From a virus, in the IMG/VR virus record IMGVR_UViG_3300037189_025222, positions 62,001 to 126,000 of that record: a DNA stretch of 64,000 nucleotides. One strand, 5' to 3'. Each line of letters starts with the position of its first letter. Position 1 is the stretch's first letter. Shown in pieces: positions 432-26,925 of the stretch. Under the pieces are notes generated by a model, which ran no database searches, was not told where the DNA came from, and saw only the letters and a list, made by a program, of their open reading frames with translations. A program made the position numbers and the translations under genes.

Positions 432-517
432 CTAATTTGGATAAAATAGATGATTTAGACCCTGTAAAATAATTGTACCCTAAGAAAAAAGTTTGTGATC
501 TAAAAAAGGGACAAATA

Positions 518-991
518 ATGCCGAAAACAAAAGTAGACAAGCTAAAGGGTGATGACGGCAAGGCTCTTTCAAAGCTCCCTAATGCTACTAGGGCTTTTAT
601 TCTTGATCTATTTGAAAAGAATGGATTCAAGGAAGTCACTATTAGCTTTAGTGGAGAAGGTGATGACGGTCAAATTGATGACCTTGACGTTCATGGTGGT
701 GTAAGGGAATCTTTGCAGGATTTGATCACAGTTCCCGATGAAGTCCTCAATGAGCTTGAGAAGTGGCCTTTGTCGCATGACGGGTATAAGATAAATCCAC
801 TGGTGAGCATCAGTGATTTTCTTGAGCAAGTCAGTGGTTTTTGGATCAACTACTGTGGAGTTGATTGGGTGAATGGTGAGGGCGGAACAGGATACATCAG
901 GTATTCTGTTGATAAAAAAGGTTTGAAAGTTCGTATGGAGGTTTCGGAATGGGAGCGGGTTGAAGGATATACCCAAGCTGGTGATCTCTAA
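518..991 (+). CDS. Conserved phage protein, DUF6878-like
   Basis: 157 residues. The ATG at 518 follows AAAAAGGG; the in-frame TTG at 473 lies inside the 11-base element and is not a likely start. The centre carries TISFSGEGDDGQIDDLDV and the C-terminal half WVNGEGGTGYIRYSV, the GxGDxGxID plus N-G-G pattern I associate with DUF6878-type proteins. The role is unknown. The gene at 4939 has the same core (NYSGGGDSGGTDSID), so they are probably diverged paralogs. Stands alone in a cassette between elements at 472 and 996. Confidence 0.75.
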   Translation: MPKTKVDKLKGDDGKALSKLPNATRAFILDLFEKNGFKEVTISFSGEGDDGQIDDLDVHGGVRESLQDLITVPDEVLNELEKWPLSHDGYKINPLVSISDFLEQVSGFWINYCGVDWVNGEGGTGYIRYSVDKKGLKVRMEVSEWERVEGYTQAGDL

Positions 992-1063
992 AATAATTGT
1001 ACCCTATTGAACCGTTGGCACTGTGCTAACGGTTGAGTTTTTTGATACCTTGGAGAGATAAAT

Positions 1064-1342
1064 ATGGCTCGTACTAAGAACGACGGTCGGAAGAACAATG
1101 CTCGTCCCGAAAAGACCTATAAGTATAATTCTGCTACTGAGGCAGCTATTGTGAAGGTTCTTCGTGAGCATGGTCTTACGGGTGGTTATAACTGGATTCG
1201 TAAGAACAAGCTGGTTGGTGTTCGTCGCTGCGGCGAGTTGGAGGGTCAGGAAGAGCGTGTTGAACTGTCGCTCCCTGCTCTGCAACAGCTTGCCAAGCGA
1301 CACCGTGTCAAGTTTGCTCGCGGCCCACGCAAGGCTGCTTGA
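1064..1342 (+). CDS. Small basic protein, paralog of the 2086 gene
   Basis: 92 residues, strongly basic at both ends (MARTKNDGRKNNARPEK and ARGPRKAA). The middle carries VLREHGLTGG, shared with the gene at 2086 (VLRKHGLTGG), and both share a SLPALxQLA segment and a (G)RPRKAA-type tail. The composition suggests nucleic-acid binding (inference); no enzyme motif is visible. A strong intrinsic terminator follows directly, so this looks like a single-gene transcription unit. Confidence 0.8.
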   Translation: MARTKNDGRKNNARPEKTYKYNSATEAAIVKVLREHGLTGGYNWIRKNKLVGVRRCGELEGQEERVELSLPALQQLAKRHRVKFARGPRKAA

Positions 1343-1357
1343 GCCAACTGACACGTT

Positions 1358-1407
1358 TAGCCAGCCGGAGGAACCCCGCCACACATTCCTCCGGCTGGCT
1401 ATTTTTA
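1358..1407 (+). terminator. Intrinsic terminator after the 1064 gene
   Basis: A near-perfect 16-base stem (TAGCCAGCCGGAGGAA with its complement at 1386-1401) is followed by TTTTTATTT. The T tract runs straight into the next 11-base element at 1408, so a termination signal and the next cassette's start signal touch. Confidence 0.9.
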
Positions 1408-1439
1408 TTTGTACCCTAAAGAATCAAGGAGATAACCAA

Positions 1440-2018
1440 ATGATTGAACTTCCTGTTGGTTCTAGCGTCAAGGGTTTTGCAAAGCTCGGTCTGCAAAAGA
1501 AAGAGAATTGGGTTAGAGGAACTTATCTCGGCAACAACAAGGTCGAGTTCTGGACAGGCGCAGTATTGACCCTTGAGGATCGCAATATCAAGGAATACAG
1601 GCGACTCAAATCAAATAGCACTGAGCAGGCCGATTTTATCAATAGTTCTTGGGAAGCACTCAAGAATAATGTGCAGCAAGCTGTCTCTGCTTTTTTCCCT
1701 GATGTCAGCGTTCAGTTCGATGAGGATGAACACATCATTTACGCTCTGGATAACTGCCTTTCTATCTGTCCTGCGATTGTAGAAAAGAATACTTTTTGCT
1801 CTATCATTGAGATTCCCACATGGCAGGTTTGTGAAGAAGTTTATTATTCTTCTACCCAGTGGGAGCCCAGTGGTTCTGATCTTTGTGAAGTGGCAGATTC
1901 CCCGAATCCCATTTCAGCAGCAAAGTTGTTTGTTGACAGGATTTGGTCATATAAGACCGATGGTTTTTGGCAGAATAAGTATGATGATGCTTATGCTAAA
2001 GATTTCTGCGAAGACTAA
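1440..2018 (+). CDS. Protein of unknown function
   Basis: 192 residues from the ATG at 1440, preceded by AAGGAGATAACCAA. A longer reading frame upstream runs through the previous gene and terminator and is not real. Acidic soluble protein; visible features are an N-terminal VGSSVKGFAKLG segment, a central FPDVSVQFDEDEHIIYALDN stretch and aromatic residues toward the C-terminus. No family recognised. Stop codon lies only a few bases before the element at 2023. Confidence 0.7.
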   Translation: MIELPVGSSVKGFAKLGLQKKENWVRGTYLGNNKVEFWTGAVLTLEDRNIKEYRRLKSNSTEQADFINSSWEALKNNVQQAVSAFFPDVSVQFDEDEHIIYALDNCLSICPAIVEKNTFCSIIEIPTWQVCEEVYYSSTQWEPSGSDLCEVADSPNPISAAKLFVDRIWSYKTDGFWQNKYDDAYAKDFCED

Positions 2019-2085
2019 AATAATTGTACCCTAGAAGTTTGTGGCTCGTTGTAACCTTGTCTAAATCCTAAAAGGAGGAATTAGA

Positions 2086-2334
2086 ATGGCGAAGAAGAAG
2101 GATGGTCGTGGGCGTCCGGCTGGGACGTTCAAGTACGCTGGTAAGACCAGTCGTGCGATTGCTTCTGTTCTGCGGAAGCATGGTCTGACGGGTGGCGCCA
2201 CGGTGCTTGCAAAGAGCGGCGTGGTGGTTGGTGGCAAGAAGGTCAAGGTGAGCCTGAGCCTTCCGGCTCTTGGTCAGCTTGCCACCCGTGAGGGTGTGAC
2301 GTTTTCGGCAGGTCGGCCTCGCAAGGCGGCTTGA
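2086..2334 (+). CDS. Small AT-hook-like basic protein, paralog of the 1064 gene
   Basis: 82 residues, start after AAAGGAGGAATTAGA. The N-terminus is MAKKKDGRGRPAGTFKY, containing a GRGRP core like an AT-hook, and the tail is AGRPRKAA. The middle shares HGLTGG and SLPALGQLA with the gene at 1064. A DNA-binding or nucleoid-type role is a reasonable inference from charge and AT-hook, not proven. The pair flanks one unrelated gene (1440), consistent with cassette duplication. Confidence 0.8.
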   Translation: MAKKKDGRGRPAGTFKYAGKTSRAIASVLRKHGLTGGATVLAKSGVVVGGKKVKVSLSLPALGQLATREGVTFSAGRPRKAA

Positions 2335-2340
2335 TTTTGT

Positions 2341-2376
2341 GGTAGCGGGGCGAGCAATATCGCCGCCCCTGCTACC
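2341..2376 (+). terminator. Hairpin after the 2086 gene
   Basis: GGTAGCGGGGC pairs with GCCCCTGCTACC (one bulge) around a short loop, followed by ATAAAAATT that merges into the element at 2383. No long T run, so termination strength is uncertain. Confidence 0.65.
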
Positions 2377-2427
2377 ATAAAAATTGTACCCTAGAAAGCT
2401 GTCCTAATCCTAAATTGGAGCAATTCG

Positions 2428-2850
2428 ATGGCTAATCCTTACCACCATGCACTTTCTAGCGTCAAGAAGTGGGGCGGCACCACCACTGATTATCAAGCCA
2501 TTCACGATTGGTTTGATGAATCCAAGATGATGTATGCTAATTTTCGGCATCGTGCTTTGCGGCATCATGCCGAGGGCATTTTTATGTGTGAAAAGTTTTT
2601 TGGTCACACCATCACCAATAGCGATGGACGTGTAATTCCTGTTCGTTGGGTTGGAGAACAGCACGTCAAAGAAGATTGCGGTTTTATTCCGTCTATTCAA
2701 GATTGGTTCCAGCATATCCAGCCGCAGCGTTGGATGGGCGAACCTCCGGTCAAGCTGGAGAAGGAACTGGATAAGATGGAGAACGCAGATAACGCTAGTT
2801 GGTCAGAGCATTTGGATAAGAAGTTTGGCAACAGTCCAGAGCGACTTTGA
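2428..2850 (+). CDS. DUF6915-like conserved phage protein
   Basis: 140 residues. The body carries a series of blocks I associate with the DUF6915 family: SSVKKWGG (about 10-17), IHDWFDESK (25-33), FRHRALRHHAEGIF (39-52), TITNSDGRVIPVRWVGEQHV (61-80) and IQDWF. The His-rich RHRALRHH segment could bind metal (inference). Function of the family is unknown. The extended C-terminus (residues 105-140) is charged and probably flexible. Confidence 0.8.
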   Translation: MANPYHHALSSVKKWGGTTTDYQAIHDWFDESKMMYANFRHRALRHHAEGIFMCEKFFGHTITNSDGRVIPVRWVGEQHVKEDCGFIPSIQDWFQHIQPQRWMGEPPVKLEKELDKMENADNASWSEHLDKKFGNSPERL

Positions 2851-2886
2851 TAAGATAGGTAGTTTAGGTAAAATAATTGTACCCTA

Positions 2887-2933
2887 GACAACTACCTTTA
2901 TCGTGGTATACTAGGCACCGGGGCCAATTCTAA
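2887..2933 (+). other. Gene-less spacer between two elements only 58 bases apart
   Basis: Elements at 2876 and 2934 enclose 47 bases with no ORF, only a weak GGTATACTAGGCACC stretch. It looks like a cassette that has lost its contents, or a doubled start signal for the gene at 2981. Confidence 0.5.
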
Positions 2934-2980
2934 ATTGTACCCTATGAATACGTTGATCTCACTAAACGAAAGGTTCCTTT

Positions 2981-3250
2981 ATGAAGATTACTGCACGGGA
3001 CGTTGCTGAACATCTTGGTTGCGATTATGTTGTAGCATCCGGCCTTCTAACTGTTCTTGTTGAAAAGGGTATCGTCAAACACGCTGAGAATCGTAAGCAC
3101 TCTAGTGGTAAGGGAAAGCCGACTCGGGTTTTTGAAGTTGACCGTGTTATTCAAATTGAATTAGCACCAGCACCACCCGCTGTTGCTACTGAAACGACCG
3201 AAACACCGGCAGTTGATTCTGTGGCTGAACCCGCTGCGGAAGCTGCCTGA
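2981..3250 (+). CDS. Small winged-helix-like DNA-binding protein candidate
   Basis: 89 residues. The first 60 (ITARDVAEHLGCDYVVASGL, then a second helix LLTVLVEKGIVKHAE and a basic RKHSSGKGKPTRVFEV turn) read as a winged helix-turn-helix: two helices, a recognition-helix region and a basic wing. The last 30 residues are Ala/Pro/Glu-rich and probably disordered. A regulator or accessory DNA-binding role is inferred from fold only. Confidence 0.65.
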   Translation: MKITARDVAEHLGCDYVVASGLLTVLVEKGIVKHAENRKHSSGKGKPTRVFEVDRVIQIELAPAPPAVATETTETPAVDSVAEPAAEAA

Positions 3251-3258
3251 CAATAATT

Positions 3259-3436
3259 AGACCATTTCTAGCGGTGCGTGATTGAATGCAAGGAGCGACA
3301 GCTGCGCAAACCTTGTGGCAGTCCTAAACGTGAATCTGTCTCCGGGGATCTGAGATTCCCGTCACGGGTTCGTTGGGTAAAAAAGATGCTTTATGGGTGT
3401 CTGGCCGATTTTATCCAACCACCGCTAGAATGGTCT
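3259..3436 (+). ncRNA. Structured RNA candidate closed by a 17-bp terminal helix
   Basis: Bases 3259-3276 pair with 3420-3436 (AGACCATTTCTAGCGGTG against CACCGCTAGAATGGTCT, one bulged T). Inside are further helices: GTTGGGTAAAA with TTTTATCCAAC (one G-U), TGCAAGG with CCTTGTG, and a hairpin around AATCT/AGATT. No convincing ORF occupies it (a 60-codon GTG frame lacks a ribosome-binding site). It lies after the 2981 gene with no element between, and before the element at 3447. Role unknown. Confidence 0.7.
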
Positions 3437-3492
3437 CTCGATTTTATTTGTACCCTATAAAGTTGTAATAAATAACTCCCAAGGAATAAAAA

Positions 3493-4629
3493 ATGGCTGC
3501 TACGGCTACTGTGGTTGATTCCGCTAGTCTTTATTTCCGTGAGGGTACGAGCGATAAGGTTTATCATGCTACCCTTGAGGACGCTGGTTCCGGTTATGTC
3601 GTGAACTTCTCTTATGGTCGCCGGGGAAGCACTCTCAAGACTGGTTCCAAGACGGCCCGCCCTGTTTCTATGGCAGAGGCTAGGAAGGTCTTTGATCGGC
3701 TTGTTGCCGAAAAGACTGGCAAGGGCTACCAGTATATGACTTCTTCTAGTCACGGTACTCCCGGTGGAGTTGCTGCCTCTAATCGTCATATCCCCACCGT
3801 TGTGCAGACCGCTCCTGCTGTTAGCCAGTGCGTTCTTCTCAACCCCATCAACCCGGATCACATTGAAACCTATTTGCGGGGAGATGAGTGGGTTGCCCAG
3901 CCCAAGTTGGACGGCGTTCGCTTTATGCTTCGTAATGAAAGCGGAGGCATCACAGCTATCAACCGCAAGGGTGGATCAGTGGCAGTTCCCAATGAAATTA
4001 TTGAATGTATCGAAGCTGCGAGTTCCTACTACGAGGAAGGTCTGCCTGACTTCTTTATCGACGGCGAGTTGATCGGTAGCACCTACTACGTTTTCGATAT
4101 TCTTGAGCATGAAGGCGACAAGATTACCGGACTGAATGTGGTGAACCGAATGGAGATTCTTCGGACTCTGTTCGATGATCTGGAATCGGACAATTTGAAG
4201 CTGGTGGATATTGTCGAAGGTAGGGAAAATAAGACGAAGCTCTATGTGCAGCTTCAAAGAGATAAGAAGGAAGGGGTTGTTTTCAAGTATAGGGAAGCGG
4301 CTTATACGACTGGTCGCCCTGCCAGCGGTGGCAACTACATGAAGCACAAGTTTTATGACACCGCTAGTTGCATCGTTTCAATGACGAATGGAACCAAGCG
4401 TAGTGTTGCTTTGAAGGTTCTTGAAAAAGGCATGAATGTTGCGATTGGGAACGTCACCATTCCGGCGAACCACCCGATCCCAAGTATGGGCGATATTGTG
4501 GAAATCAAGTATCTCTATGCCTATAAGAACGGCTCTCTTTACCAGCCGATCTATTTGGGAAAGAGAACTGATCTGACTTATTCGGACTGCAAGTACGATC
4601 AACTCAAGTTCAAGTCAGAAGATGACTGA
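3493..4629 (+). CDS. ATP-dependent DNA ligase with N-terminal WGR domain
   Basis: 378 residues. Residues 8-85 form a WGR domain (SLYFREGTSDKVYHATLED, then VNFSYGRRGSTLKTG). A linker leads to a nucleotidyltransferase domain: motif I PKLDGVR with catalytic Lys138, motif III DGEL (190-193), motif IV EGVVFK (260-265) and motif V with Lys284/Lys286. The last 90 residues fit an OB-fold. It should seal nicks in duplex DNA through a ligase-AMP intermediate. WGR domains bind DNA ends in PARPs; their fusion to a ligase suggests end or nick recognition. Single gene between elements at 3447 and 4635. Confidence 0.93.
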   Translation: MAATATVVDSASLYFREGTSDKVYHATLEDAGSGYVVNFSYGRRGSTLKTGSKTARPVSMAEARKVFDRLVAEKTGKGYQYMTSSSHGTPGGVAASNRHIPTVVQTAPAVSQCVLLNPINPDHIETYLRGDEWVAQPKLDGVRFMLRNESGGITAINRKGGSVAVPNEIIECIEAASSYYEEGLPDFFIDGELIGSTYYVFDILEHEGDKITGLNVVNRMEILRTLFDDLESDNLKLVDIVEGRENKTKLYVQLQRDKKEGVVFKYREAAYTTGRPASGGNYMKHKFYDTASCIVSMTNGTKRSVALKVLEKGMNVAIGNVTIPANHPIPSMGDIVEIKYLYAYKNGSLYQPIYLGKRTDLTYSDCKYDQLKFKSEDD

Positions 4630-4666
4630 AAATAATTGTACCCTAATTTCAACATGGAGGGTCACT

Positions 4667-4798: not shown

Positions 4799-4925
4799 CG
4801 TAATCCCGTTCCCAACATGGGAACCAATGATTATTCGTGGCCCGTGGTTCCCGAAGCCAGATTTGAAGATTTTTTCTGAGCCTGAGGAACAGAATTGTAC
4901 CCTACAAGATCAGTCTAATTCCTAA
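4788..4925 (+). CDS. Possible overlapping TTG-start small protein
   Basis: 45 codons from a TTG at 4788, overlapping the 4667 gene by 11 bases, with GAGAGAGG 8-12 bases upstream. Pro/Trp-rich start (VIPFPTWEPMIIRGPWFPKP). The frame reads through the element at 4894, which then encodes NCTL, and stops just before the next ribosome-binding site. Plausible but weak. Confidence 0.35.
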   Translation: MSRDVIPFPTWEPMIIRGPWFPKPDLKIFSEPEEQNCTLQDQSNS

Positions 4926-6479: not shown

Positions 6480-6554
6480 TTTTGGCCGCAATTTTGGCCG
6501 CTTATTTTTTGTACCCTATAAGGTTGTTCTTCTAACTTATACAAGGAATAAATC

Positions 6555-7668: not shown

Positions 7669-7719
7669 TATCCAAACTTCTAATTAAAAATTGTACCCTA
7701 AGAGACTAAGGAGCAAACA

Positions 7720-8640
7720 ATGAAATATGGTTTGTGTTGCATTAGTCTCGACCTTCAAGAAGTTGAAACCCCTCTAAAGTTTCAAAAGATAACTTATAAG
7801 CGTTTCTCTCAATTGCCCCGAGAAGAAGCTCTTTCTATTCTTGGAGACAGAATCCACAACAACTTGATTGTGACAAATGAAACAATCAAGTATTGCTCTA
7901 AGAATGATCTTTGCTACAGGCTTTCTAGCGATCTCTTTCCGCTAATTACTTATGACACGGCAGGTGTGGATCTTACCGACTTGCCGAACCACGATGATAT
8001 TCAAGATGCTTTTGATGCAATTGAAAACACTATCATCGAAACTAAAGTTAGAATTAGCTGTCACCCGAGTGAATTCAATGTTTTGGCTTCCAGGAACCAG
8101 GTAGCTGTCAATAAAACTATTGACGAATTGAACTTCTACTCATCTTTTATGGACAGAATTGGATGTCCAGCCAATTACGATTCCCCAATGAATCTCCACA
8201 TTCACAATAAAGAAGGTGAATATAGCGAGATTATTGGCCGGTTTTTAGATAATTTTTCTAAGCTCGATGACAATTGCAAAGCTCGATTGGTTATTGAGAA
8301 CGATGACAAATTAGGATGTTGGTCTGTGAAAGAACTCGTCGAGGAATTTCATTCAAAGACGAATATCCCAATTACATTCGATTATCTCCATCATAAATGT
8401 CATCCAAATGGATTGTCTGAAAGTGAAGCTTTTTTGCTCTGCTATGACACATGGAAAGACTATAAACCACTTTTTCATTACAGCGAGAGCAGAATCGGCA
8501 ACAACCCGAGGGCTCATGCAGATTATGCAGAAAATGTTTTTGAAGTTTATAAAGAGGTGGACGTAGATTTTGAATTGAAAATGAAGGATAAGGCTATTTC
8601 AAAATATAAAGAAGCCTACCCTAAAAACATTGTACCCTAA
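7720..8640 (+). CDS. UV-damage endonuclease (UVDE/UvsE family)
   Basis: 306 residues, full length for the family. TIM-barrel motifs in order: MKYGLCCISLDL at the N-terminus, YRLSSDLFPL (about 67-76), ISCHPSEFNVL (108-118), MNLHIHNKEG, ARLVIENDDKLG (with metal-binding Glu/Asp), ITFDYLHHKCHPNGL and a C-terminal LFHYSES plus DFELKMKDKA. These supply the His/Glu/Asp ligands of the trinuclear metal site. It nicks DNA 5' to UV photoproducts to start repair. The last three codons before the stop (Ile-Val-Pro) and the stop itself are the 11-base element at 8629. Confidence 0.92.
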   Translation: MKYGLCCISLDLQEVETPLKFQKITYKRFSQLPREEALSILGDRIHNNLIVTNETIKYCSKNDLCYRLSSDLFPLITYDTAGVDLTDLPNHDDIQDAFDAIENTIIETKVRISCHPSEFNVLASRNQVAVNKTIDELNFYSSFMDRIGCPANYDSPMNLHIHNKEGEYSEIIGRFLDNFSKLDDNCKARLVIENDDKLGCWSVKELVEEFHSKTNIPITFDYLHHKCHPNGLSESEAFLLCYDTWKDYKPLFHYSESRIGNNPRAHADYAENVFEVYKEVDVDFELKMKDKAISKYKEAYPKNIVP

Positions 8641-8646
8641 AAGACC

Positions 8647-8889
8647 ATGTTCAAAATTGAAGATTTATGGATTGATTTGTCCCGTGCAAAAGATACGCAG
8701 GCACGGGGACTGAGCATGGGGAATCCTCCCTCTGGCAAAGATTTGGGTTTTAGTTGTGGAATAGGCAAGAATGTTGGTGGATTTTATCACTTAGATGTTT
8801 TTGATAGCAGAAAGACATTAGTTCTTTCGCTATGTCTGACCAAAGATGAGCTTATAAACCTTGTGATCGACGCAGAAAATACCATTTGA
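8647..8889 (+). CDS. Small protein of unknown function, nearly leaderless
   Basis: 80 residues. The ATG lies only 7 bases after the element and has no Shine-Dalgarno sequence, unlike its neighbours. Gly-rich centre (GNPPSGKDLGFSCGIGKNVG). Runs directly into the 8897 gene with a 7-base gap. Confidence 0.55.
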   Translation: MFKIEDLWIDLSRAKDTQARGLSMGNPPSGKDLGFSCGIGKNVGGFYHLDVFDSRKTLVLSLCLTKDELINLVIDAENTI

Positions 8890-10703: not shown

Positions 10704-10782
10704 TTAGGCAATATAGGCAATTTGTCTCTCTAAATAAATTGTACCCTAAAAGTGTGTTGGATCTAAACCCCGGAGCTATAAA

Positions 10783-11479: not shown

Positions 11480-11683
11480 ATGGTGGAACTAAAAAAAGTT
11501 CAGTCTTGGGTAGAAGAATTCCCACCCCATTGGGATCTCTTTATTGACAAAACTGGTCGATTTCTAATCATTTCCAGTCCTGGCGGAACAACAATTTCTA
11601 CATTGGAAATATCTGGAAATATAGAGAGATTTGATATTGGAACTTTGAAAGATAATTGTACCCTATCAGATTGCAAATTATAA
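11480..11683 (+). CDS. Small protein with read-through of the element
   Basis: 67 residues. N-terminal Trp-rich segment (VQSWVEEFPPHWDLFIDKTG). The C-terminal coding region runs through the element at 11655, which encodes NCTL in this frame. Function unknown. Confidence 0.6.
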   Translation: MVELKKVQSWVEEFPPHWDLFIDKTGRFLIISSPGGTTISTLEISGNIERFDIGTLKDNCTLSDCKL

Positions 11684-12200: not shown

Positions 12201-12223
12201 AAGATAGCTTTAGGGTACAATTT

Positions 12224-12307
12224 GTGAATGATTTCTTTGGAATCCTTGTAGTCGGTATTTGTGCAGTTATCGGTCAGGTTATCGGTCAGATCATCGTTAG
12301 AAGATAA
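12224..12307 (+). CDS. Possible 27-residue hydrophobic peptide
   Basis: A GTG frame encoding NDFFGILVVGICAVIGQVIG and ending IIVRR. It could be a membrane peptide, but the ribosome-binding region is occupied by an inverted copy of the element (TAGGGTACAAT at 12211-12221). Low confidence. Confidence 0.3.
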   Translation: MNDFFGILVVGICAVIGQVIGQIIVRR

Positions 12308-12339
12308 TTGTACCCTAAATCTAAAACTAAGGAGCTAAT

Positions 12340-12549
12340 ATGGAAATCAAGATTTTTATTGGCGACATCGATGAGTTTTATAGTGATGCAAAAGAGGGAA
12401 ACCGTCGCTGGGCGGTCTGGTCTAATTATGGTGATAGTGGCAAGTTAGTAGAAAAACTTCTTGGCCGCTTTGAAACAGAAGAAGAAGCAGTTCAGTTTGC
12501 CAACGAATACGATCCTGGTGAGGGAAAGACTAAAGTAATTGTACCCTAA
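12340..12549 (+). CDS. Small protein ending in element-encoded Ile-Val-Pro
   Basis: 69 residues, ATG after AAGGAGCTAAT. Residues 20-45 (NRRWAVWSNYGDSGKLVEKL) and FETEEEAVQFANEYD suggest a compact alpha/beta protein. The final VIVP and TAA stop are the element at 12538, so the same bases end this gene and serve the next. Confidence 0.65.
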   Translation: MEIKIFIGDIDEFYSDAKEGNRRWAVWSNYGDSGKLVEKLLGRFETEEEAVQFANEYDPGEGKTKVIVP

Positions 12550-12574: not shown

Positions 12575-13267
12575 ATGGAACGCCTTTACCACGGTACGTC
12601 TTCTAAGAATCTCAATAAAATCCTCGAAAACGGAATCCAGCCCCGAGGAAAGCGAAAAAGCAACTGGAAAGAATATCCCAGTCGCTCAGACATGGTTTAT
12701 CTGACCAATGCTTATGCTCCCTTTTTTGCAGTTCAGAGCTGCAAGAAAAATGAAAAAGCATTGGTTCTGGAACTTGATAGAGATTCTCTGGATGCCAGCA
12801 ATGTTTATCCTGATGAAGATTTCATTGCTCAAGCAATCGCCCAACAAACAAATGGCTCAATCGAAGATGTGCATGAGGCAGTTCGTGAGAATCTGGAAGA
12901 TTACCAGCACCACACAGATGATAGCTTGGGTGGTCTGGGTAATGCTTGCTACAAGGGAACGGTTCCCCAGAATGCAATTACTCGTTATTGTTTGATTGAT
13001 ATAAAAGAGCGGCCTGATCTTGGAATGACCGTCCTTGACCCTTCAATTAGCCTCTTAAACTATAAGTTTTGTGGAAGTCGGTATCGTTCGATTATAGCTT
13101 GGCTATTTGGTGATAGAGCCGATTTTGAAATTAGTATTGGGTCAAACGATACTTGGTTTCAAATGATGGAAACACAACAGCCCGGATATACTGAAAACAT
13201 TAAAACGTTTTTCACAAATCGAGCTGGTATCGAGGTTGTCGAATCTAAAATAATTGTACCCTGCTAA
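12575..13267 (+). CDS. ADP-ribosyltransferase-like protein
   Basis: 230 residues. N-terminal RLYHGTSSKNLNKILENGIQ (about 3-22), followed by SDMVYLTNAYAPFFAVQ (38-54), the H-G-T-S and Y-L-T patterns of NAD-binding ADP-ribosyltransferase/RNA 2'-phosphotransferase folds. The catalytic acidic residue is not obvious; Glu/Asp near 113-117 or in the C-terminal half are candidates. It might modify nucleic acid or host protein, as several phage ARTs do (inference). The C-terminus reads through the element (KIIVPC). Confidence 0.65.
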   Translation: MERLYHGTSSKNLNKILENGIQPRGKRKSNWKEYPSRSDMVYLTNAYAPFFAVQSCKKNEKALVLELDRDSLDASNVYPDEDFIAQAIAQQTNGSIEDVHEAVRENLEDYQHHTDDSLGGLGNACYKGTVPQNAITRYCLIDIKERPDLGMTVLDPSISLLNYKFCGSRYRSIIAWLFGDRADFEISIGSNDTWFQMMETQQPGYTENIKTFFTNRAGIEVVESKIIVPC

Positions 13268-13679: not shown

Positions 13680-13723
13680 TTTGTACCCTATGTTTTTGTG
13701 AATAACCCCCTTTGGAGATAATC

Positions 13724-14093: not shown

Positions 14094-14144
14094 AAATATA
14101 AATTGTACCCTAAAAGTTTGTTCGATCCCCAAAGGAGATAAGCA

Positions 14145-14453: not shown

Positions 14454-14512
14454 AGGGGCTTGACAAACTAATTGTACCCTGTAAAATGGAAGCAACACCC
14501 CCCGGAGATCCA

Positions 14513-14785: not shown

Positions 14786-14791
14786 GCTGTT

Positions 14792-14874
14792 GCCGAAGTG
14801 GTGAAATTGGCATACACGCCAGACTCAAAATCTGGTGCCCAAAAGGCGTGTGGGTTCGACCCCCACCTTCGGCA
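14792..14874 (+). tRNA. tRNA-Leu, anticodon CAA
   Basis: Acceptor stem GCCGAAG/CTTCGGC, D-arm TGGTGAAATTGGCA, anticodon stem CCAGA/TCTGG with loop CTCAAAA (anticodon CAA, reads UUG), a long class II variable arm TGCCCAAAAGGCGTG, and T-arm GTGGG-TTCGACC-CCCAC. No CCA is encoded. The class II arm and anticodon make leucine secure. It lies in a protein cassette rather than a tRNA cluster; the right-arm genes use UUG often enough that a supply role is plausible (inference). Confidence 0.96.
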
Positions 14875-14899
14875 TATTTAAATTGTACCCTAACAAAAC

Positions 14900-15262: not shown

Positions 15263-15315
15263 ATAAAAATTGTACCCTATAAAGTTGTCCTTCTAACCCC
15301 CAACGGAGCTAACTT

Positions 15316-15627: not shown

Positions 15628-15667
15628 TTTGTACCCTAACTCTAACTCTACTCCCAAAGGATTATCT

Positions 15668-16793: not shown

Positions 16794-16881
16794 ATAAAAC
16801 CATTGTACCCTAAAAGGTCGTTACCCCATTTGCACTTGAACGACTAATTCCTAAAATCTAAAATATAAGGGGAGAATAAAA

Positions 16882-17105: not shown

Positions 17106-17143
17106 AGACCCTTGAGATAAATCTCAGGGGTCTATTTTTATTT
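17106..17143 (+). terminator. Intrinsic terminator merging into an element
   Basis: AGACCCTTGAGAT (17106-17118) pairs with ATCTCAGGGGTCT (17121-17133), followed by ATTTTTATTT which is the start of the element at 17141. Confidence 0.9.
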
Positions 17144-17162
17144 GTACCCTAAGGAGAATATC

Positions 17163-17565: not shown

Positions 17566-17832
17566 ATGACTGAGCTTTTTACCGACATTGCTATTGTTGT
17601 TATGTATCTTGGAACTGCTTTGGCGCTTTGTGCATTTGTTGGAATTGTTCTTCGGGTTGGTGATTTGGGATTTTGGTGCTTTGGGAAACTTGACGAATAT
17701 CTGCAAGATAGGCATTTTGAGAAGCTCAGGAAGTCTTGGGAAAAGAATTGTACCCTAAAAGATTGTTCTAAACCCCAACGGAGTTCTTATGTCAATTCAT
17801 ATAACCAACTTTGTTCGACGCCAGACTGCTGA
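17566..17832 (+). CDS. Small membrane protein with element read-through
   Basis: 88 residues from the ATG at 17566 (CTAAGGAATAAA). Residues 6-30 (TDIAIVVMYLGTALALCAFV) span the membrane, followed by a charged cytoplasmic part. The frame passes through the element at 17747 (NCTL) and overlaps the next gene by 44 bases, so the last 25 residues may be non-functional run-on. Confidence 0.6.
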   Translation: MTELFTDIAIVVMYLGTALALCAFVGIVLRVGDLGFWCFGKLDEYLQDRHFEKLRKSWEKNCTLKDCSKPQRSSYVNSYNQLCSTPDC

Positions 17833-18628: not shown

Positions 18629-18686
18629 GTTCTAAATAAATTGTACCCTAACAGGTTGTTCCGAATCACCCCTAACGGAGACAATC

Positions 18687-19508: not shown

Positions 19509-19556
19509 AATAATTGTACCCTAGAAAGTTGTTCGATCCCACTCAAAGGAGTTGAC

Positions 19557-19708: not shown

Positions 19709-19778
19709 CAGTGGTGTAAATACGAGGTTTTGGCGACAAGAGCCTCATCCAAGTCGCCCTAGGGCAGTCAGGCCACTG
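19709..19778 (+). ncRNA. Compact pseudoknot RNA candidate
   Basis: CAGTGG 19709-19714 pairs with CCACTG 19773-19778. Inside, GAGG 19724-19727 pairs with CCTC 19743-19746 and GGCGAC 19732-19737 with GTCGCC 19753-19758; these two helices interleave as an H-type pseudoknot. A palindrome GCCCTAGGGC follows at 19756-19765. It is preceded by CCAACGGAG, as if it had a normal leader, but no ORF follows (GTG GTG TAA). The next element is at 19794. Confidence 0.6.
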
Positions 19779-19842
19779 TCCTAGATTGTTTTTATTGTAC
19801 CCTAGTAAGTTGTTCAATCCCAACCATCAACCGGAGCTAACC

Positions 19843-19998: not shown

Positions 19999-20046
19999 TT
20001 TGTACCCTATAGAAGTGTTCAATCCTAACCCCAACGGAGTTTCACG

Positions 20047-20391
20047 ATGAAGTGCATTAGCAATACTTTGGTGATTACTGCCGATATTTGGGAAGATCCG
20101 GGTGACTACCCTAATTCCCTTGCCGGTGGCCCGCTTCCCAGCCACTCTTACATTGAATCCAGCGGTGAACTGGTGCTGGAAGCTGAGAATAACGAGGAAC
20201 TCGAAAGTTTCGACGCCCTAAACGATTGGTTCTCTGACTGGATTCATTGTGGTGCAGAGGCCAGCACTATAGGTGCATACGTTGATGTCCCCAGTTATTG
20301 GCATATTGACTGGGAGTTCAAAGTGGAGGGAAACATTCTCACCGTGACGGTCGGTGATGATTGTGAAGCTAACGAGCCAGATTATGATTAA
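20047..20391 (+). CDS. Protein of unknown function
   Basis: 114 residues, ATG after CAACGGAGTTTCACG. Very acidic, beta-rich (YIESSGELVLEAENNEELES; WEFKVEGNILTVTVGDDCEA). Its TAA is followed directly by the element at 20391. Confidence 0.65.
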   Translation: MKCISNTLVITADIWEDPGDYPNSLAGGPLPSHSYIESSGELVLEAENNEELESFDALNDWFSDWIHCGAEASTIGAYVDVPSYWHIDWEFKVEGNILTVTVGDDCEANEPDYD

Positions 20392-20438
20392 TTGTACCCT
20401 AACAGGTTGTTCTGATTTCCTCTAAAACGGAGAGACAA

Positions 20439-20597: not shown

Positions 20598-20646
20598 AAT
20601 TGTACCCTAACAAGTTGTTCGATCCTCACCCCAACGGAGAATGACC

Positions 20647-21255: not shown

Positions 21256-21293
21256 TAGGGTACAAATAAAGTAATTAAAATAATTGTACCCTA
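21256..21293. repeat. Inverted pair of the 11-base element
   Basis: TAGGGTACAAA at 21256-21266 faces ATTGTACCCTA at 21283-21293 across an A+T-only spacer. As DNA it is a divergent pair; as RNA it could form a 10-bp hairpin. Similar pairs are at 24215-24260, 25630-25666, 25805-25829 and 26741-26779. Confidence 0.8.
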
Positions 21294-21560: not shown

Positions 21561-21605
21561 ATTGTACCCTAGTTAATCGTTCGACACCCCCAACAAGAGG
21601 ATGCA

Positions 21606-21809: not shown

Positions 21810-21857
21810 ATCATTTGTACCCTATTAAAGCGTTCAACACCCCAACGGAGAATGATC

Positions 21858-22184
21858 ATGGAATACACCGAAGCCCTCAAAGTTCTTGGCAAGCGTGATT
21901 CGAAGAAAGTCGGAAACAACACCTACATGATCCGGCTGGGTTCGGACATCGGTATTCGACTTCACAACACCGTTGTGGTGACCATCCATCCCGACAATAC
22001 CTACACACTCAATAGCGGTGGATGGCAGACAGTGACAACAAAGGATCGGATCAACCAGTATTCACCGGTTCGTGTGTATCAATCAAAAAGCGTTTGGTAT
22101 GTCGGTCAAGGCGAGCTGTTTTACGACAACATGAAAGTCGGTGTCGTTTGCGGTGAGCCGCTAGCTTTAGGAATTGTACCCTAG
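21858..22184 (+). CDS. Conserved phage protein ending in element-encoded Ile-Val-Pro
   Basis: 108 residues from the ATG at 21858 (a second at 21852 crowds the CGGAG). Conserved blocks LGKRDSKKVGNNTYMIRLG, DIGIRLHNTVVVTIHPDNTY and LNSGGWQTVTTKDRINQYSP, common in phages; function unknown. The final GIVP and TAG are the element at 22173. Confidence 0.75.
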   Translation: MEYTEALKVLGKRDSKKVGNNTYMIRLGSDIGIRLHNTVVVTIHPDNTYTLNSGGWQTVTTKDRINQYSPVRVYQSKSVWYVGQGELFYDNMKVGVVCGEPLALGIVP

Positions 22185-22505: not shown

Positions 22506-22558
22506 CAATAAATAAATTGTACCCTAAAAGAGTGTTCGATCCCAACGGAGAAGCGATC

Positions 22559-22702: not shown

Positions 22703-22761
22703 ATTCAATAAATAAATTGTACCCTGACAGAGTGTTCGATCCACCCCAACGGAGTTTTGAA

Positions 22762-22914: not shown

Positions 22915-22963
22915 ATTGTACCCTAGATGATTGTTCGATTCACACCCCAACGGAGAAGCGATC

Positions 22964-23344: not shown

Positions 23345-23351
23345 AACGTGT

Positions 23352-23408
23352 GCTAGGGGCGGCAAGGCTCTACGGCCAAAAGCCGCGAAACTGCTAGCCG
23401 CCCCTAGC
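23352..23408 (+). terminator. Long hairpin with an internal stem
   Basis: GCTAGGGGCGGC (23352-23363) pairs perfectly with GCCGCCCCTAGC (23397-23408); a second stem CGGC/GCCG lies inside at 23373-23385. It ends the 22964 gene and is followed by CCGTTGGGGTACTTAT, the same tail as the repeated hairpin module. Confidence 0.7.
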
Positions 23409-23480
23409 CCGTTGGGGTACTTATAAATAATTGTACCCTAAAAGTGTGTTGCGAACGCCCCTCTTTTTCAAGGATGAAAA

Positions 23481-23651: not shown

Positions 23652-23698
23652 ATTGTACCCTAGTTGATTGTTCGATCCAACCCCAACGGAGAATGACA

Positions 23699-23917: not shown

Positions 23918-23919
23918 AC

Positions 23920-23965
23920 ACGGTTGCCTGGGCGGGTTGAGACAAAACTCCCCGCCCTGGCCTGT
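23920..23965 (+). terminator. Repeated terminator-like module, copy 2
   Basis: ACGG-TT-GCCTGGGCGGG with CCCGCCCTGGC-CTGT. Relative to copies 1 and 3 it has a T-T mismatch in the stem and a G-U pair at the base. It sits directly after the stop of the 23699 gene. Confidence 0.7.
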
Positions 23966-24023
23966 TAGGGTATTTATATTGTACCCTATAGAAGTGTCAG
24001 CCACCCCAAACACAGGAGCCAAT

Positions 24024-24185
24024 ATGAGCAATAACGAAAAACCGTACTGCTTCGAAGAAGCCCGTTTCAAGCGTGAAATGGAATACGTGGCTCGTAAGCT
24101 CAAAGAGGCGTTGGAACTCAAGGAATACGCCAAACAACTGGCAAAAGAAAAAGAACAAAAAGAGAAAGAGGAAAGCCGGGACTAA
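24024..24185 (+). CDS. 53-residue charged helical protein
   Basis: ATG at 24024 after CACAGGAGCCAAT. Nearly one continuous helix of Glu/Lys (FKREMEYVARKLKEALELKE; AKEKEQKEKEESRD). Probably a coiled-coil. Function unknown. Confidence 0.65.
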   Translation: MSNNEKPYCFEEARFKREMEYVARKLKEALELKEYAKQLAKEKEQKEKEESRD

Positions 24186-24206
24186 CACCCCCGGTTCTCT
24201 TTTTTA
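24175..24206 (+). terminator. Intrinsic terminator overlapping the 24024 stop
   Basis: GCCGGG around 24175-24180 pairs with CCCGG at 24190-24194, followed by TTCTCTTTTTT. It is the first part of a compound unit whose next part is an inverted element at 24215. Confidence 0.75.
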
Positions 24207-24214
24207 GTCGGCCA

Positions 24215-24260
24215 TAGGGTACAAATAAAATAAAAAGGGATATACAATAATTGTACCCTA
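24215..24260. repeat. Inverted pair of the 11-base element
   Basis: TAGGGTACAAA at 24215-24225 and ATTGTACCCTA at 24250-24260. The preceding GGCCA resembles GCCCGCCA before the copies at 25630 and 26741, so terminator plus inverted pair recurs as one unit. Confidence 0.75.
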
Positions 24261-24267
24261 TAACAGT

Positions 24268-24382
24268 GTGAATGATTGCGAGGCCGCACCATCGGCACTA
24301 CTGTCCGGTTGCAAACGGCAGTAACTCGCGGGAGCGGTATGCCGAAAGGCAGCGAGTGGTGCACCCCATCGCAATCGTTCAC
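24268..24382 (+). ncRNA. 115-nt structured RNA occupying its own cassette
   Basis: It begins 8 bases after the element at 24250 and ends 10 bases before the one at 24392. A 14-bp terminal helix pairs GTGAATGATTGCGA (24268-24281) with TCGCAATCGTTCAC (24369-24382), one G-U. Nested within: GCACCA with TGGTGC, ACTG-t-CCG with CGGCAGT, CTCGC with GCGAG, and a TGCC-GAAA-GGCA hairpin with a GNRA loop whose strand TGCCGA could also pair with TCGGCA near 24292. No ORF fits on the + strand. Not a tRNA or any RNA class I can name. Confidence 0.85.
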
Positions 24383-24436
24383 AACAAAACAATTGTACCC
24401 TAGAAAAGTGTTCGATTCACCCCAACGGAGACGATC

Positions 24437-24772
24437 ATGACTTTCGTCAACCTGACCCCGCACACGATCACTGTGGTTCTCGACAATACCAGCGTGCAAT
24501 TCCCGGCTTCTGGCAACGTGGCCCGTGTTTCCACCAGTCGAGTCTCTGGCCCCACGCTAACCGTCTACGGCGATTCTGTCGGTATCCAGACTTCCCGTGT
24601 CGAGTTCGGGGCAGTCGAGGGGCTTCCCGATCCCGTGGACGGCACGGTTTACATTGTGAGCGGAATGGTCGCAGCCCGTGTCAACCGGCCCGACGTTTTC
24701 GCTCCCGGTGAACTGGTGCGTGATGCAAACGGCCAGCCCACCGGCTGCAAGGGTCTGACTTGCAGCGGTTGA
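24437..24772 (+). CDS. Conserved phage/bacterial protein (NLTPHTI family)
   Basis: 111 residues, ATG after CAACGGAGACGATC. FVNLTPHTITVV at the start, FPASGNVARV, VEGLPDPVDGTVYIVSGMVA and FAPGELVRDANGQPTGCKGL at the end are the hallmarks of a family common in phages and prophages. All-beta; function unknown. Confidence 0.8.
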   Translation: MTFVNLTPHTITVVLDNTSVQFPASGNVARVSTSRVSGPTLTVYGDSVGIQTSRVEFGAVEGLPDPVDGTVYIVSGMVAARVNRPDVFAPGELVRDANGQPTGCKGLTCSG

Positions 24773-24829
24773 TTATTATAATTGTACCCTATAGAAGTGT
24801 TCGATCCCAACCCCAACGGAGACTCACGA

Positions 24830-25270
24830 ATGAACGACATTCTTCTCGCCGCCCTGACCAGCTGCTTCAGCAAGATGGCAAAGGCCGCTGGCCCGATTGC
24901 CCCCGGCCTGCACCAGGTCGATGAAACGATCACGATGCGGGTCAAGGGCGAGGTGCTGAAGTCGGACGACGAAACCTACGTCCCGACGATTGCGATTCCC
25001 GTCAAGGCCGTGATGGCTACGTTGCTCCCCCGGTTGGGTGCGACACGGGAGGCTGCGATGGAAACGCTTATCGCCGCCATGACTGAAGCGGTCAATCTGG
25101 ACAAGCTGGGCGATGAAACGCTCAAAGCCCGGATGAAAGACGTTGACGCGGCTTTCGAGCATGTGCAGAACGTGCTCGACGCCCTCCCGCCAAAGACACG
25201 GACGGGAAAGACGAACGTGGACGTGACCCTTGTGGTCGCTCCCACGCCCGCCGTCGCACTTGTCCCGTGA
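24830..25270 (+). CDS. Protein of unknown function
   Basis: 146 residues from the ATG at 24830 (CAACGGAGACTCACGA). N-terminal helix LLAALTSCFSKMAKAAG, then a beta segment (DETITMRVKGEVLKSDDETY) and a helical Ala/Leu-rich body. The pattern of a helix then V-x-x-x-x-x-I-x-x-x-G-x-V resembles phage proteins of unknown function. Very G+C-rich codons. Confidence 0.65.
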   Translation: MNDILLAALTSCFSKMAKAAGPIAPGLHQVDETITMRVKGEVLKSDDETYVPTIAIPVKAVMATLLPRLGATREAAMETLIAAMTEAVNLDKLGDETLKARMKDVDAAFEHVQNVLDALPPKTRTGKTNVDVTLVVAPTPAVALVP

Positions 25271-25282
25271 CGATACGGCATC

Positions 25283-25314
25283 GGGGGCGGGAGGAACTAA
25301 CAACTCCCGCCCCC
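25283..25314 (+). terminator. GC-rich hairpin after the 24830 gene
   Basis: GGGGGCGGGAG (25283-25293) pairs with CTCCCGCCCC (25304-25314+). No T run follows; same style as the hairpin at 19256. Confidence 0.65.
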
Positions 25315-25379
25315 ACTAGCCGTTTGTGCAATTGTACCCTATTGGTTTGTGTGATTCGTCCCTTTACTTTGGAGCAGTT

Positions 25380-25562
25380 ATGGAAGCGAAAATCGAGAAC
25401 GGCTTTCTGGTTCTGCGAGTCCCGATGAATGCAACGCCGATTCGTTCGTCTACCGGCAAGACTTTGGTGGTTGCCTCGACCTATGGCAACAAGGCAACCG
25501 AAGTGACGGTGGACGGCAAGACGGTCACCGTGGGCGTCAACGCCTATATCAAGGCCGCTTGA
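25380..25562 (+). CDS. Small conserved phage protein
   Basis: 60 residues from the ATG at 25380 (TTTGGAGCAGTT). KIENGFLVLRVPMNATPIRS then STGKTLVVASTYGNKATEV and VNAYIKAA: a small beta fold seen repeatedly in phages (x-I-x-x-G-x-L-V-L...S-x-S-G-K-T-L-x-V-A-S-T). Function unknown. Confidence 0.75.
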   Translation: MEAKIENGFLVLRVPMNATPIRSSTGKTLVVASTYGNKATEVTVDGKTVTVGVNAYIKAA

Positions 25563-25583
25563 CCCCAACGGTTCGGATCGAAA

Positions 25584-25620
25584 GCCGGAGGGGACAGCCA
25601 CCCCCTCCGGTTCTTTTTTT
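25584..25620 (+). terminator. Intrinsic terminator (CCGGAGGGG type), copy 1
   Basis: GCCGGAGGGG pairs with CCCCTCCGGT around ACAGCCAC, followed by eight or more T with one C. A near-identical terminator is at 26697-26730. Confidence 0.85.
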
Positions 25621-25629
25621 AGCCCGCCA

Positions 25630-25666
25630 TAGGGTACAAATAAATATATAAAATAATTGTACCCTA
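25630..25666. repeat. Inverted pair of the 11-base element
   Basis: TAGGGTACAAA at 25630-25640 and ATTGTACCCTA at 25656-25666, joined by TAAATATATAAAATA. Directly follows the terminator at 25584. Confidence 0.8.
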
Positions 25667-25709
25667 GATAAGTGTTCGATCTAACCTTCCCTCTCACTTG
25701 GAGTCAACG

Positions 25710-25778
25710 ATGATCGCTCTCGTTCTCGCGTTTGGCCTTGGTTTCGCCGCCATTTCTGCCGTTTACTGGGTGCTGTAA
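25710..25778 (+). CDS. 22-residue hydrophobic peptide
   Basis: ATG at 25710 after TTGGAGTCAACG. Encodes MIALVLAFGLGFAAISAVYW plus VL: a bare membrane span. It occupies a full cassette between elements at 25656 and 25819, which argues that it is real. Confidence 0.6.
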   Translation: MIALVLAFGLGFAAISAVYWVL

Positions 25779-25804
25779 AGCTCCCAGTCTAACACCTGAG
25801 TGAT

Positions 25805-25829
25805 TAGGGTATAAAGTAATTGTACCCTA
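25805..25829. repeat. Overlapping inverted pair with a variant left half
   Basis: TAGGGTATAAA at 25805-25815 (C changed to T) faces the element at 25819-25829 with almost no spacer, so the two halves nearly form a continuous palindrome. Confidence 0.6.
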
Positions 25830-25871
25830 GATAAGTGTTCGATCCGATCCCACCCCAACCGGAGACGCACG

Positions 25872-26165
25872 ATGAAGAACGCTTTCGACCGCACGAACAG
25901 CATGAAGAACAAGCTCAAGGCCGATTGGAACCGGATGGTGGGGGAACTGGTGTCCATCCCCGCCGGTTGCCAGATTCACAGCCTGACGCTCACGCAGACC
26001 AACTTCGGTTGGGTCTACGCCCGGAAGCACGGCCAGCCCGTGCCGGTCGCCCAGTTGCGGAACGCCGCCGTGACGAAGGGTTACTGTATCCTGCACGACG
26101 GCCCCAACTTCCGGGTGGCCCTCCCGCCGAAGCGGAACGGGGAGCCGGTCAAGGCCGCAGCGTGA
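25872..26165 (+). CDS. Protein of unknown function
   Basis: 97 residues, ATG after CCGGAGACGCACG. Basic helix FDRTNSMKNKLKADWNRMVG, then a beta-rich body (IHSLTLTQTNFGWVYARKHG; FRVALPPKRNGEPV). Stop is embedded in GCAGCGTGAACACGG, as in the 23699 gene. Confidence 0.65.
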   Translation: MKNAFDRTNSMKNKLKADWNRMVGELVSIPAGCQIHSLTLTQTNFGWVYARKHGQPVPVAQLRNAAVTKGYCILHDGPNFRVALPPKRNGEPVKAAA

Positions 26166-26167
26166 AC

Positions 26168-26213
26168 ACGGTTGCCGGGGCGGGTCGAGACTAACTCCCC
26201 GCCCCGGCCCCGT
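26168..26213 (+). terminator. Repeated terminator-like module, copy 3
   Basis: ACGG-TT-GCCGGGGCGGG with CCCGCCCCGGC-C-CCGT, almost identical to copy 1 at 20959 and with the same TTGGGGTACTT tail as the 23352 hairpin. Confidence 0.75.
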
Positions 26214-26281
26214 TGGGGTACTTGTATTTATATTGTACCCTATAGAAGTGTTCGATCCCCACCCCCAACCGGAGCCGCCCC

Positions 26282-26671
26282 ATGTTGAATGAAGCGTTCT
26301 TTCAGGTGTGCAACGATGCCGTCCCCGCAAAGTCCAGCTACGTCTCGCTCTACGTCAACGTGCCGTACTACGGTGGGCCGGAGGAAGGTGGATGGTGGGG
26401 CAGTGACACCGCACTAGTCGCTCACTACAAGTGTGACAGCCAGCCCCATGCCGAAGCTGTGAAGGCCCGTGTCGAGGAGCTGGCCCAGCAGTTGAGCGAC
26501 GATGCCCGCCGGTCGTTTGGTCAAGCCTGCAAGGCCCAGTGTGAATGGCTGGACGCACGTGGGTTGGACGCCGACTACCTGCCCGAAGTGGACGGGGAGG
26601 AAACCTACTGGGTCGCCGTCGAGGATCGCCCCGGTGAACACGCCAGCCAAGGGTGCAGGCACTACGAATAA
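26282..26671 (+). CDS. Conserved phage protein (YYGGPEEGGWWG family)
   Basis: 129 residues, ATG after ACCGGAGCCGCCCC. SLYVNVPYYGGPEEGGWWGS, then a helical section (AEAVKARVEELAQQLSDDAR), LDARGLDADYLPEVDGEETY and the closing CRHYE match a widespread phage family. Function unknown. Last protein gene of the cassette array. Confidence 0.78.
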   Translation: MLNEAFFQVCNDAVPAKSSYVSLYVNVPYYGGPEEGGWWGSDTALVAHYKCDSQPHAEAVKARVEELAQQLSDDARRSFGQACKAQCEWLDARGLDADYLPEVDGEETYWVAVEDRPGEHASQGCRHYE

Positions 26672-26696
26672 AATTGTACCCTATCAAGCACACCGA

Positions 26697-26730
26697 CCGG
26701 AGGGGACAGCCAACCCTCCGGCTTTCTTTT
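26697..26730 (+). terminator. Intrinsic terminator (CCGGAGGG type), copy 2
   Basis: CCGGAGGG pairs with CCCTCCGG around GACAGCCAA, followed by CTTTCTTTT. Shares the GACAGCCA loop and the downstream AGCCCGCCAT with the 25584 unit. Confidence 0.85.
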
Positions 26731-26740
26731 CAGCCCGCCA

Positions 26741-26779
26741 TTGGGTACAAATAAAGTAATACATAATAATTGTACCCTA
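26741..26779. repeat. Inverted pair of the 11-base element, last of the array
   Basis: TTGGGTACAAA at 26741-26751 (one change) and ATTGTACCCTA at 26769-26779. One more forward copy follows at 26846, then GGTACCCTCCCCCCCC. The 26780-26925 stretch has no ORF with a start signal. Confidence 0.75.
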
Positions 26780-26925
26780 GTAATATACAGGAGGGTATTA
26801 CAAAGATAATAATACAGAAATAAAAAGCGAAAACCTTTTAAAAAAATTGTACCCTAGGTACCCTCCCCCCCGCAATTACTGTCTTATTTTTTAAGTCGTC
26901 CTGACTTTTTTTCCCGTATTAGCAC

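Follow-up and report, generated by a model that had tools for sequence, protein, structure and literature searches.

A repeated element before the small genes of a jumbo phage arm, a likely single-box promoter core for a phage sigma factor

We analyzed a 64,000-nucleotide stretch of viral DNA, positions 62,001 to 126,000 of IMG/VR record IMGVR_UViG_3300037189_025222 (hereafter the window), in which an 11-base element, [A/T]TTGTACCCT[A/G], recurs between genes. A pattern scan of the window returned exactly 53 forward copies, spanning 472-26856, and none at 26857-64000, so that an earlier note on this DNA had both the number and the boundary right. The sequence ATTGTACCCTA accounts for 42 of the 53; the other 11 vary at the end bases only, by A to T at the first base (n = 8) or A to G at the last (n = 3), and the central TTGTACCCT is without variation in all of them. 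With up to two mismatches allowed there were 67 matches, against a mean of 16.3 and a maximum of 27 in shuffled sequences, and the remote matches past 26857 were at chance level. The pattern read backwards, not complemented, had no match in the whole record. The same note had described a single orientation, which holds for the forward copies but overlooks four inverted ones on the minus strand, at 12211-12221, 21256-21266, 24215-24225 and 25630-25640. Three of these four lie 16-24 bases (b) upstream of a forward copy; that at 21256 is divergent from element 34 (21283-21293), that at 24215 from element 44 (24250-24260), and that at 25630 from element 48.

No copy lies within a cassette gene. 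In 43 of the 53, a Shine-Dalgarno sequence (SD) and an ATG that opens a frame of at least 40 codons follow within 60 nt, the distance from element to ATG having a median of 35 nt and falling mostly between 29 and 42 nt, whereas random arm positions gave a mean of only 12.4 of 53 and a maximum of 24 in 200 draws. Numbered from the left, and all on the plus strand, the forward copies begin with ATTGTACCCTA at 472-482, which has its SD and ATG 35 nt downstream. Copies of TTTGTACCCTA stand at 1408-1418 (element 3), 3447-3457 (element 8, preceding an ATP-dependent ligase gene at 3493-4629), 6508-6518 (element 11, directly past a terminator-like hairpin at 6483-6500), 13680-13690 (19), 15628-15638 (24), 17141-17151 (26, which the T-run of a terminator-like hairpin at 17106-17133 enters), 19999-20009 (31) and 21814-21824 (36), and copies of ATTGTACCCTG at 13253-13263 (18), 14471-14481 (21) and 22716-22726 (39). 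Element 6 (2876-2886) is in tandem with a sigma70-like TAGACA-16-TATACT at 2885-2912. Terminator-like hairpins also precede element 30 (19794-19804; hairpin 19759-19784), element 43 (23978-23988; 23954-23971), element 46 (24781-24791; 24744-24766) and, as a strong one, element 48 (25656-25666; 25583-25612), and element 50 (26232-26242) lies past a hairpin at 26201-26219. The pattern scan placed the remaining copies at 996-1006, 2023-2033, 2383-2393 and 2934-2944 (elements 2, 4, 5 and 7), 4635-4645 and 4894-4904 (9 and 10), 7690-7700, 8629-8639, 10738-10748, 11655-11665 (12 to 15), 12307-12317 and 12538-12548 (16 and 17), 14102-14112 (20), 15269-15279 (23), 16802-16812 (25), 17747-17757, 18640-18650 and 19513-19523 (27 to 29), 20391-20401 and 20599-20609 (32 and 33), 21561-21571 (35), 22173-22183 and 22516-22526 (37 and 38), 22915-22925, 23430-23440 and 23652-23662 (40 to 42), 24392-24402 (45), 25331-25341 (47), 25819-25829 (49), 26673-26683 and 26769-26779 (51 and 52), and 26846-26856 (53), which is the end of the arm. 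Element 22 (14882-14892) begins 7 b past the end of a tRNA-Leu(CAA) gene (14791-14875, plus strand); tRNA-like ends are found just upstream of elements in a related genome, G003 (below), too.

The array extends to the left beyond the window. Pieces of the window matched IMGVR_UViG_3300032334_002567, a jumbo phage contig of 381,443 b (G001), at 100%, and this contig has 72 forward copies, 69 of them in a 50.6-kb arm at 272.0-322.6 kb and 3 elsewhere (our joined G001 sequence was 96 b shorter than the record, which shifts arm coordinates by 48 b and leaves the counts unaffected). What had been called a left arm is therefore an arm that the window enters midway and of which it covers the right half. 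The GC content of the arm is 0.41-0.47, against approximately 0.35 for the rest of G001, and the contig carries T4-type functions (terminase, DnaB-like helicase, UvsX, Dda, baseplate). Only a few of 45 cassette proteins had any Pfam or PHROG match, namely a ligase, UvdE and several DUFs. An INPHARED DNA search returned no close phage relatives, a host search via bacterial genome contigs gave no useful match, and the text matches to the element sequence in the literature were, among the matches listed, all unrelated.

Alignment of the 69 arm copies, all of which retain TTGTACCCT, gave an information profile in which conservation extends beyond 11 b, to A-WWWW-A-WTTGTACCCTA, with A at -6 in 55 of 69 and at -1 in 60 of 69; the unit first described thus had the invariant core right and the length too short. 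Positions -20 to -45 held no information and no conserved box, which bears out the claim that there is no -35 partner. Downstream, a purine stretch is followed by TGTTC at +7. A second block had been placed 4-6 bases downstream of the element, and it is real but partial: TGTT stands at a fixed +7 in 21 of the 53 window copies, GTTCGATCC in 9 and AACGGAG in 16, concentrated in the right half.

The same core precedes other genes in related phages. With 99 reciprocal best hits, G003 (IMGVR_UViG_3300020172_001601, 340,341 b) is syntenic to G001 and has its arm at the same genome place, adjoining a clamp-loader-like AAA gene (64% identity), while the two arms have only a handful of genes in common. 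It holds 60 forward and 4 reverse copies of TGTACCCT, where approximately 2 per strand would be expected per genome, and all 60 fall in 28 kb (265.2-293.0 kb), in the context TAGGTC(C/T)A(G/T)-TGTACCCTAG-TGGGTGT. There are 38 copies in 15 kb of G008, 59 forward and 1 reverse in 26 kb of G011, and 17 within 20 kb of G012 (532,729 b, GC 0.57), the last as TTTAGAG(A/G)TT-TGTACCCTA. G011 and G012 are at 47-57% GC, and the core is present in phages of 36, 47 and 57% GC. In these relatives the array keeps its genome place, beside the clamp-loader-like gene, and precedes almost wholly different genes. The earlier note had named as one refuting condition that no relative keeps the element next to differing genes, and the element passed this check. 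Other relatives use other words. G009 and G010 have, at the same genome place, a different repeated word, TTTAATTGTATTTTTGAAACG, which keeps TTGTAnnnT; G010 has approximately 20 copies of TAATTGTATTTTTGAAACGGAACTTCC at the arm place and GTCTTGGTCT repeats upstream of the anchor gene. Two element types occur in G014 (GC 0.57), GGTGTACTGACCTCCGG after terminators and then AGCCGTTCGCC-N-ACCCTA before genes, and G015 has TTAGTTGTACCAGT a few times. We found no TGTACCCT array in the relatives G016-G020, G028-G030 and LR756511. The last, a 595-kb uncultured phage (a relative at 46%), was rejected as an array carrier because its anchor gene is present with no array after it.

Evidence for promoter function came from G003, G008 and G011, where the copies fall into two classes by the base before TGTACCCT, T or G. 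A terminator lies upstream of 21 of 32 T-class copies as opposed to 3 of 124 G-class copies (Fisher p=4e-15). The T-class terminators end approximately 25 b upstream of the element, and the stop codon of the preceding gene is often a TAG within a G-class copy. In the relatives the element is the sole conserved sequence between terminator and next gene; the element, or something inseparable from it, must therefore restart transcription. A terminator-like hairpin precedes 5 of the 72 copies in G001, compared with 1.1% at random. Outside its arm G003 has ordinary TTTACA-17-TAKAAT (TATAAT/TAGAAT) promoters, with none inside. Promoter-like matches in the arm were near shuffle level. Outside its arm G001 has two copies, at 198761 and 211740, that are each immediately followed by a sigma70-type promoter; the copy at 211740 is upstream of a sigma-like gene, s4.

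We compared 26 orthologous cassettes of G003 and G011, which are collinear except for one weak pair (35%) and whose proteins are mostly 57-93% identical. The unchanged TGTACCCT is preceded mostly by TAGGTCCAG in G003 and mostly by TAGTGTCAG in G011. Dozens of element sites have changed together between these two genomes, which points to a trans-acting reader or to gene conversion among copies and disfavours independent drift.

The elements are also where cassettes have been exchanged. The arms of G003 and G008 are approximately 87-97% identical, and where genes had been gained, lost or replaced over at least 100 b, the ends lay a median of 15 b from an element, against 106 b for random positions; 12 of 20 breakpoints were within 40 b of an element, where 3.9 were expected (p<0.0005). 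Near 8859 in G008 there is a clean deletion of one cassette that left a hybrid element, whose context matches G003 286596 on the left and G003 286879 on the right. These breakpoints support the suggestion, made in the earlier note, of a recombination patch that lets cassettes swap, and such a role is compatible with a promoter.

At least four sigma-70-family proteins are encoded in each of G001 and G003. The sigma-like genes lie in the window at 34600-35511 (minus strand), in G001 at 162412, 197511 and 211843, and in G003 at 48022, 62375, 155954 and 197090. The factor s1 (G001 197.5 kb, G003 156 kb) is 55% identical between the two; s3 and s4 are present in both genomes, and G003 has a further sigma at 62 kb. 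The three large genomes that have a TGTACCCT arm, G001, G003 and G012, are also those with close s1 orthologues (51-55%). Homologues in G015, G019, G028 and LR756511 are more distant, and we found none in G016, G017, G018, G020 or G030, all of which are without the array. In region 2.4, s1 has a conserved sequence (STYATW-V-KKNF-RD) unlike that of s2, the 303-aa paralogue of s1 encoded in the window (Sigma70_r2 + Sigma70_r4), whose own gene stands behind a sigma70-type TTGTCA-16-TATAAT. On these sequence comparisons s1 is our favoured candidate for the element reader, with s4 and s2 as possible readers. An element precedes the s4 gene in G001, but there is none at s4 in G003, and identity between the two proteins is as low as 29%; s4 is for that reason a second candidate only. 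Its orthologues adjoin the clamp-loader-like gene in G015, G029 and G030, a position that might, by analogy, be the one expected of a gp55-like factor. The s3 protein has region 2 only (96 aa) in G001, and region 4 also in G003.

Together these data suggest that the element is probably a phage-specific single-box promoter core, used by the host RNA polymerase (RNAP) core with a phage sigma factor, which doubles as a recombination seam. The -10-like box TTG-TAcccT, set after a short conserved flank and lacking a -35, would be read by host core carrying a phage-encoded sigma, most plausibly s1, with transcription starting perhaps 5-6 b downstream of TACCCT. Of the two readers that the earlier note had proposed for a -10-like core, the phage-specific sigma factor finds support in the several sigma-70-family genes; no phage polymerase was detected at the sensitivity of the profile search. 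Nearly every small accessory gene in the approximately 50-kb arm comes with one copy, and genes could therefore be gained, lost or exchanged without operon breakage. The copies have 15-25 b of sequence in common and would thus serve as homology seams, with recombination presumably taking place within the element itself. Dependence on a phage sigma would speak against immediate-early expression.

Several observations weigh against this reading. Most copies in G003 and G011 are G-class and lie inside operons, where a promoter is not an absolute requirement. The copy at 17141 has its SD beginning right at the element, so that transcription from 5-6 b further downstream would cut into this SD. Sigma promoters usually show more variation than the 9-11 b that are absolutely invariant here, and s1 has region 4, which normally reads a -35 box, where no -35 is conserved. 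The co-occurrence of s1 and the motif rests on three genomes that are phylogenetically non-independent. Finally, where the high-scoring segment pairs (HSPs) used to locate breakpoints end at an element, this reflects in part that unrelated cassettes have nothing but the element in common, and elements also mark gene boundaries.

Phage-encoded readers of single boxes have precedents. The phiEco32 sigma gp36 reads the single box tAATGTAtA, with a start site 6-8 b downstream, and the profile of our 69 copies resembles it in having a -10-like box without a -35 (PMC8948821). In phiEco32 and 7-11 a phage sigma redirects host core; in G001 and G003 there are sigma genes and, at the sensitivity of the search, no RNAP was detected. 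The gp47 sigma gene of phage 7-11 has host-type and phage-type promoters upstream (PMC4331800), an arrangement comparable to s4 in G001. These phages differ from ours in having six to eight sites per genome, rather than approximately 70, and another element sequence.

T4 late promoters (TATAAATA, gp55) are likewise strict -10-only boxes read by a phage sigma, and the s4 orthologues beside the clamp-loader-like gene add to the likeness. The sequence is another one, however, and the element here precedes small accessory genes and not structural ones; TATAAATA itself was tried and was not enriched. The promoter early stem-loop elements (PeSLs) of T4-like phages are reportedly units of promoter and stem-loop between small accessory genes that undergo modular shuffling in hyperplastic regions. 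PeSL promoters are sigma70-like. Recombination between copies shuffles modules in both systems, as the G003/G008 breakpoints indicate subject to the caveat on HSP ends. The element described here is not classed as a PeSL because its promoter is not sigma70-like, being a single box with a TTGTACCCT core and no -35, and because most copies lack a stem-loop; the concerted divergence between lineages is a further difference. By analogy, the element may work like a phage-sigma single-box promoter and a PeSL cassette at once.

Among alternatives, a promoter read by host polymerase with a normal or alternative host sigma, possibly phage-modified and with no phage sigma involved, holds up best, although we consider it unlikely. 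Of a -10 box, TAcccT would retain the T at -12, the A at -11 and the T at -7; the host holoenzyme serves the early arms of T4-like phages, and the pairing of a phage sigma with the motif is itself putative. Yet the element has no -35, matches a -10 box poorly and shows an invariance unlike that of sigma70 promoters, and G003 retains its ordinary TTTACA-17-TAKAAT promoters elsewhere. The occurrence of one core at 36, 47 and 57% GC, probably in different hosts, is better explained by a reader that the phage carries.

It is rather less probable that the element is an operator, that is, a binding site for a phage DNA-binding regulator and not a promoter core, similar to stoperators or to the start-associated sequences (SAS) and extended SAS (ESAS) of cluster K mycobacteriophages. 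The latter are short and asymmetric, lie in one orientation before the starts of genes of different families, and come with subcluster-specific inverted repeats (PMC3203893); their function is still open (PMC12699233). In G012 (210-245 kb) an inverted half-site GGTACAAAC(C), GGTACA, accompanies 10 of 19 copies at a constant distance of 32-34 b upstream, a spacing that suggests a paired site three helical turns apart, and there are a few paired copies in G001, G003, G008 and G011. As a general feature the half-site was rejected, being common only in G012, and most copies are single (73 of 78 in G001, 56 of 60 in G003). Moreover, an operator would leave the terminator-following copies with no other conserved promoter before the gene. 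SAS (GGGATAGGAGCCC) also lies directly at the start codon, whereas the element here is approximately 35 nt upstream, before a separate SD.

We find it still harder to favor a promoter for a phage single-subunit or virion RNAP of the T7 or N4 kind, composed of an AT-rich part, an 8-b specificity box and an initiation site. The compact 17-b box, its near-invariance and the absence of a -35 do resemble T7-type promoters, and a small CCC-TANN-GGG hairpin could form in G003 and G011; this hairpin is impossible in G001 and was rejected as a defining feature for that reason. At profile-search sensitivity, the phage proteins gave no match to PF00562 (beta subunit) or PF00940 (single-subunit RNAP), although the PF00940 search of G001, G003 and G008 is a weak one, its control genomes having likewise returned nothing. 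We also considered, and rejected, an N4-like virion RNAP encoded by a giant open reading frame (ORF), since neither Pfam nor PHROG gave a match to the 3932-aa stretch of it that lies in the window. A jumbo phage group with sigma factors has been described as having no RNAP (PMC7824862).

An RNA-level element, whether a processing site or a translation or leader signal in polycistronic mRNA, seems improbable, and the processing site that the earlier note had listed gained no support. The conserved downstream block (TGTTC at +7; GGGTGTAAC in G003) and the SD would lie in a presumed leader, and G-class copies overlap stop codons; against this, T-class copies follow terminators by approximately 25 b and should have little upstream RNA left to process, the conserved flank lies upstream of any leader, and Rfam gave no match in the window besides one tRNA. 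A recombination patch with no role in expression, despite the G003/G008 breakpoints and the hybrid element at the one-cassette deletion, can be nearly dismissed, as it leaves unexplained the fixed distance to SD and ATG, the class that tracks terminators, and a strict core kept in both lineages while the flanks drift jointly.

If the element is indeed a promoter core for a phage sigma, we tentatively propose, as a picture we hold to be possible but somewhat doubtful as a whole, a clade of jumbo phages with a dedicated expression arm and its own sigma, in which 40-70 copies of a promoter word precede exchangeable genes. Promoter words and their reader would change together, the words would also be recombination sites, and a word might act as a compatibility code by which a gene taken over from any relative that uses it would be expressed immediately. 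Lineages that use another word, such as TTGTATTTTT in G010 or ACCCTA with the AGCCGTTCGCC box in G014, could then be separate exchange groups. Jumbo phages have hundreds of accessory genes, and here one near-invariant word marks approximately 70 of them. The word offers a simple way to search for accessory genes and might be a source of an orthogonal sigma-promoter pair; in this system both modular gene exchange and the co-evolution of sigma and promoter can be tested directly.

The arm has a sharp border at 26846-27000: past the last element, which is followed by GGTACCCTCCCCCCC, the GC content drops from approximately 0.49 to 0.33 and most genes are on the minus strand. The giant ORF, at 52203-63998 and beyond, lies in a structural region and encodes 4404 aa in G001, with a homologue of 3112 aa in G003. 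An ORF tally, in which genes were not assigned singly, placed metabolic and stress genes at 106-234 kb of G001, including SpoVR, PrkA, DUF444, an aldehyde dehydrogenase and a thiamine pyrophosphate (TPP) enzyme.

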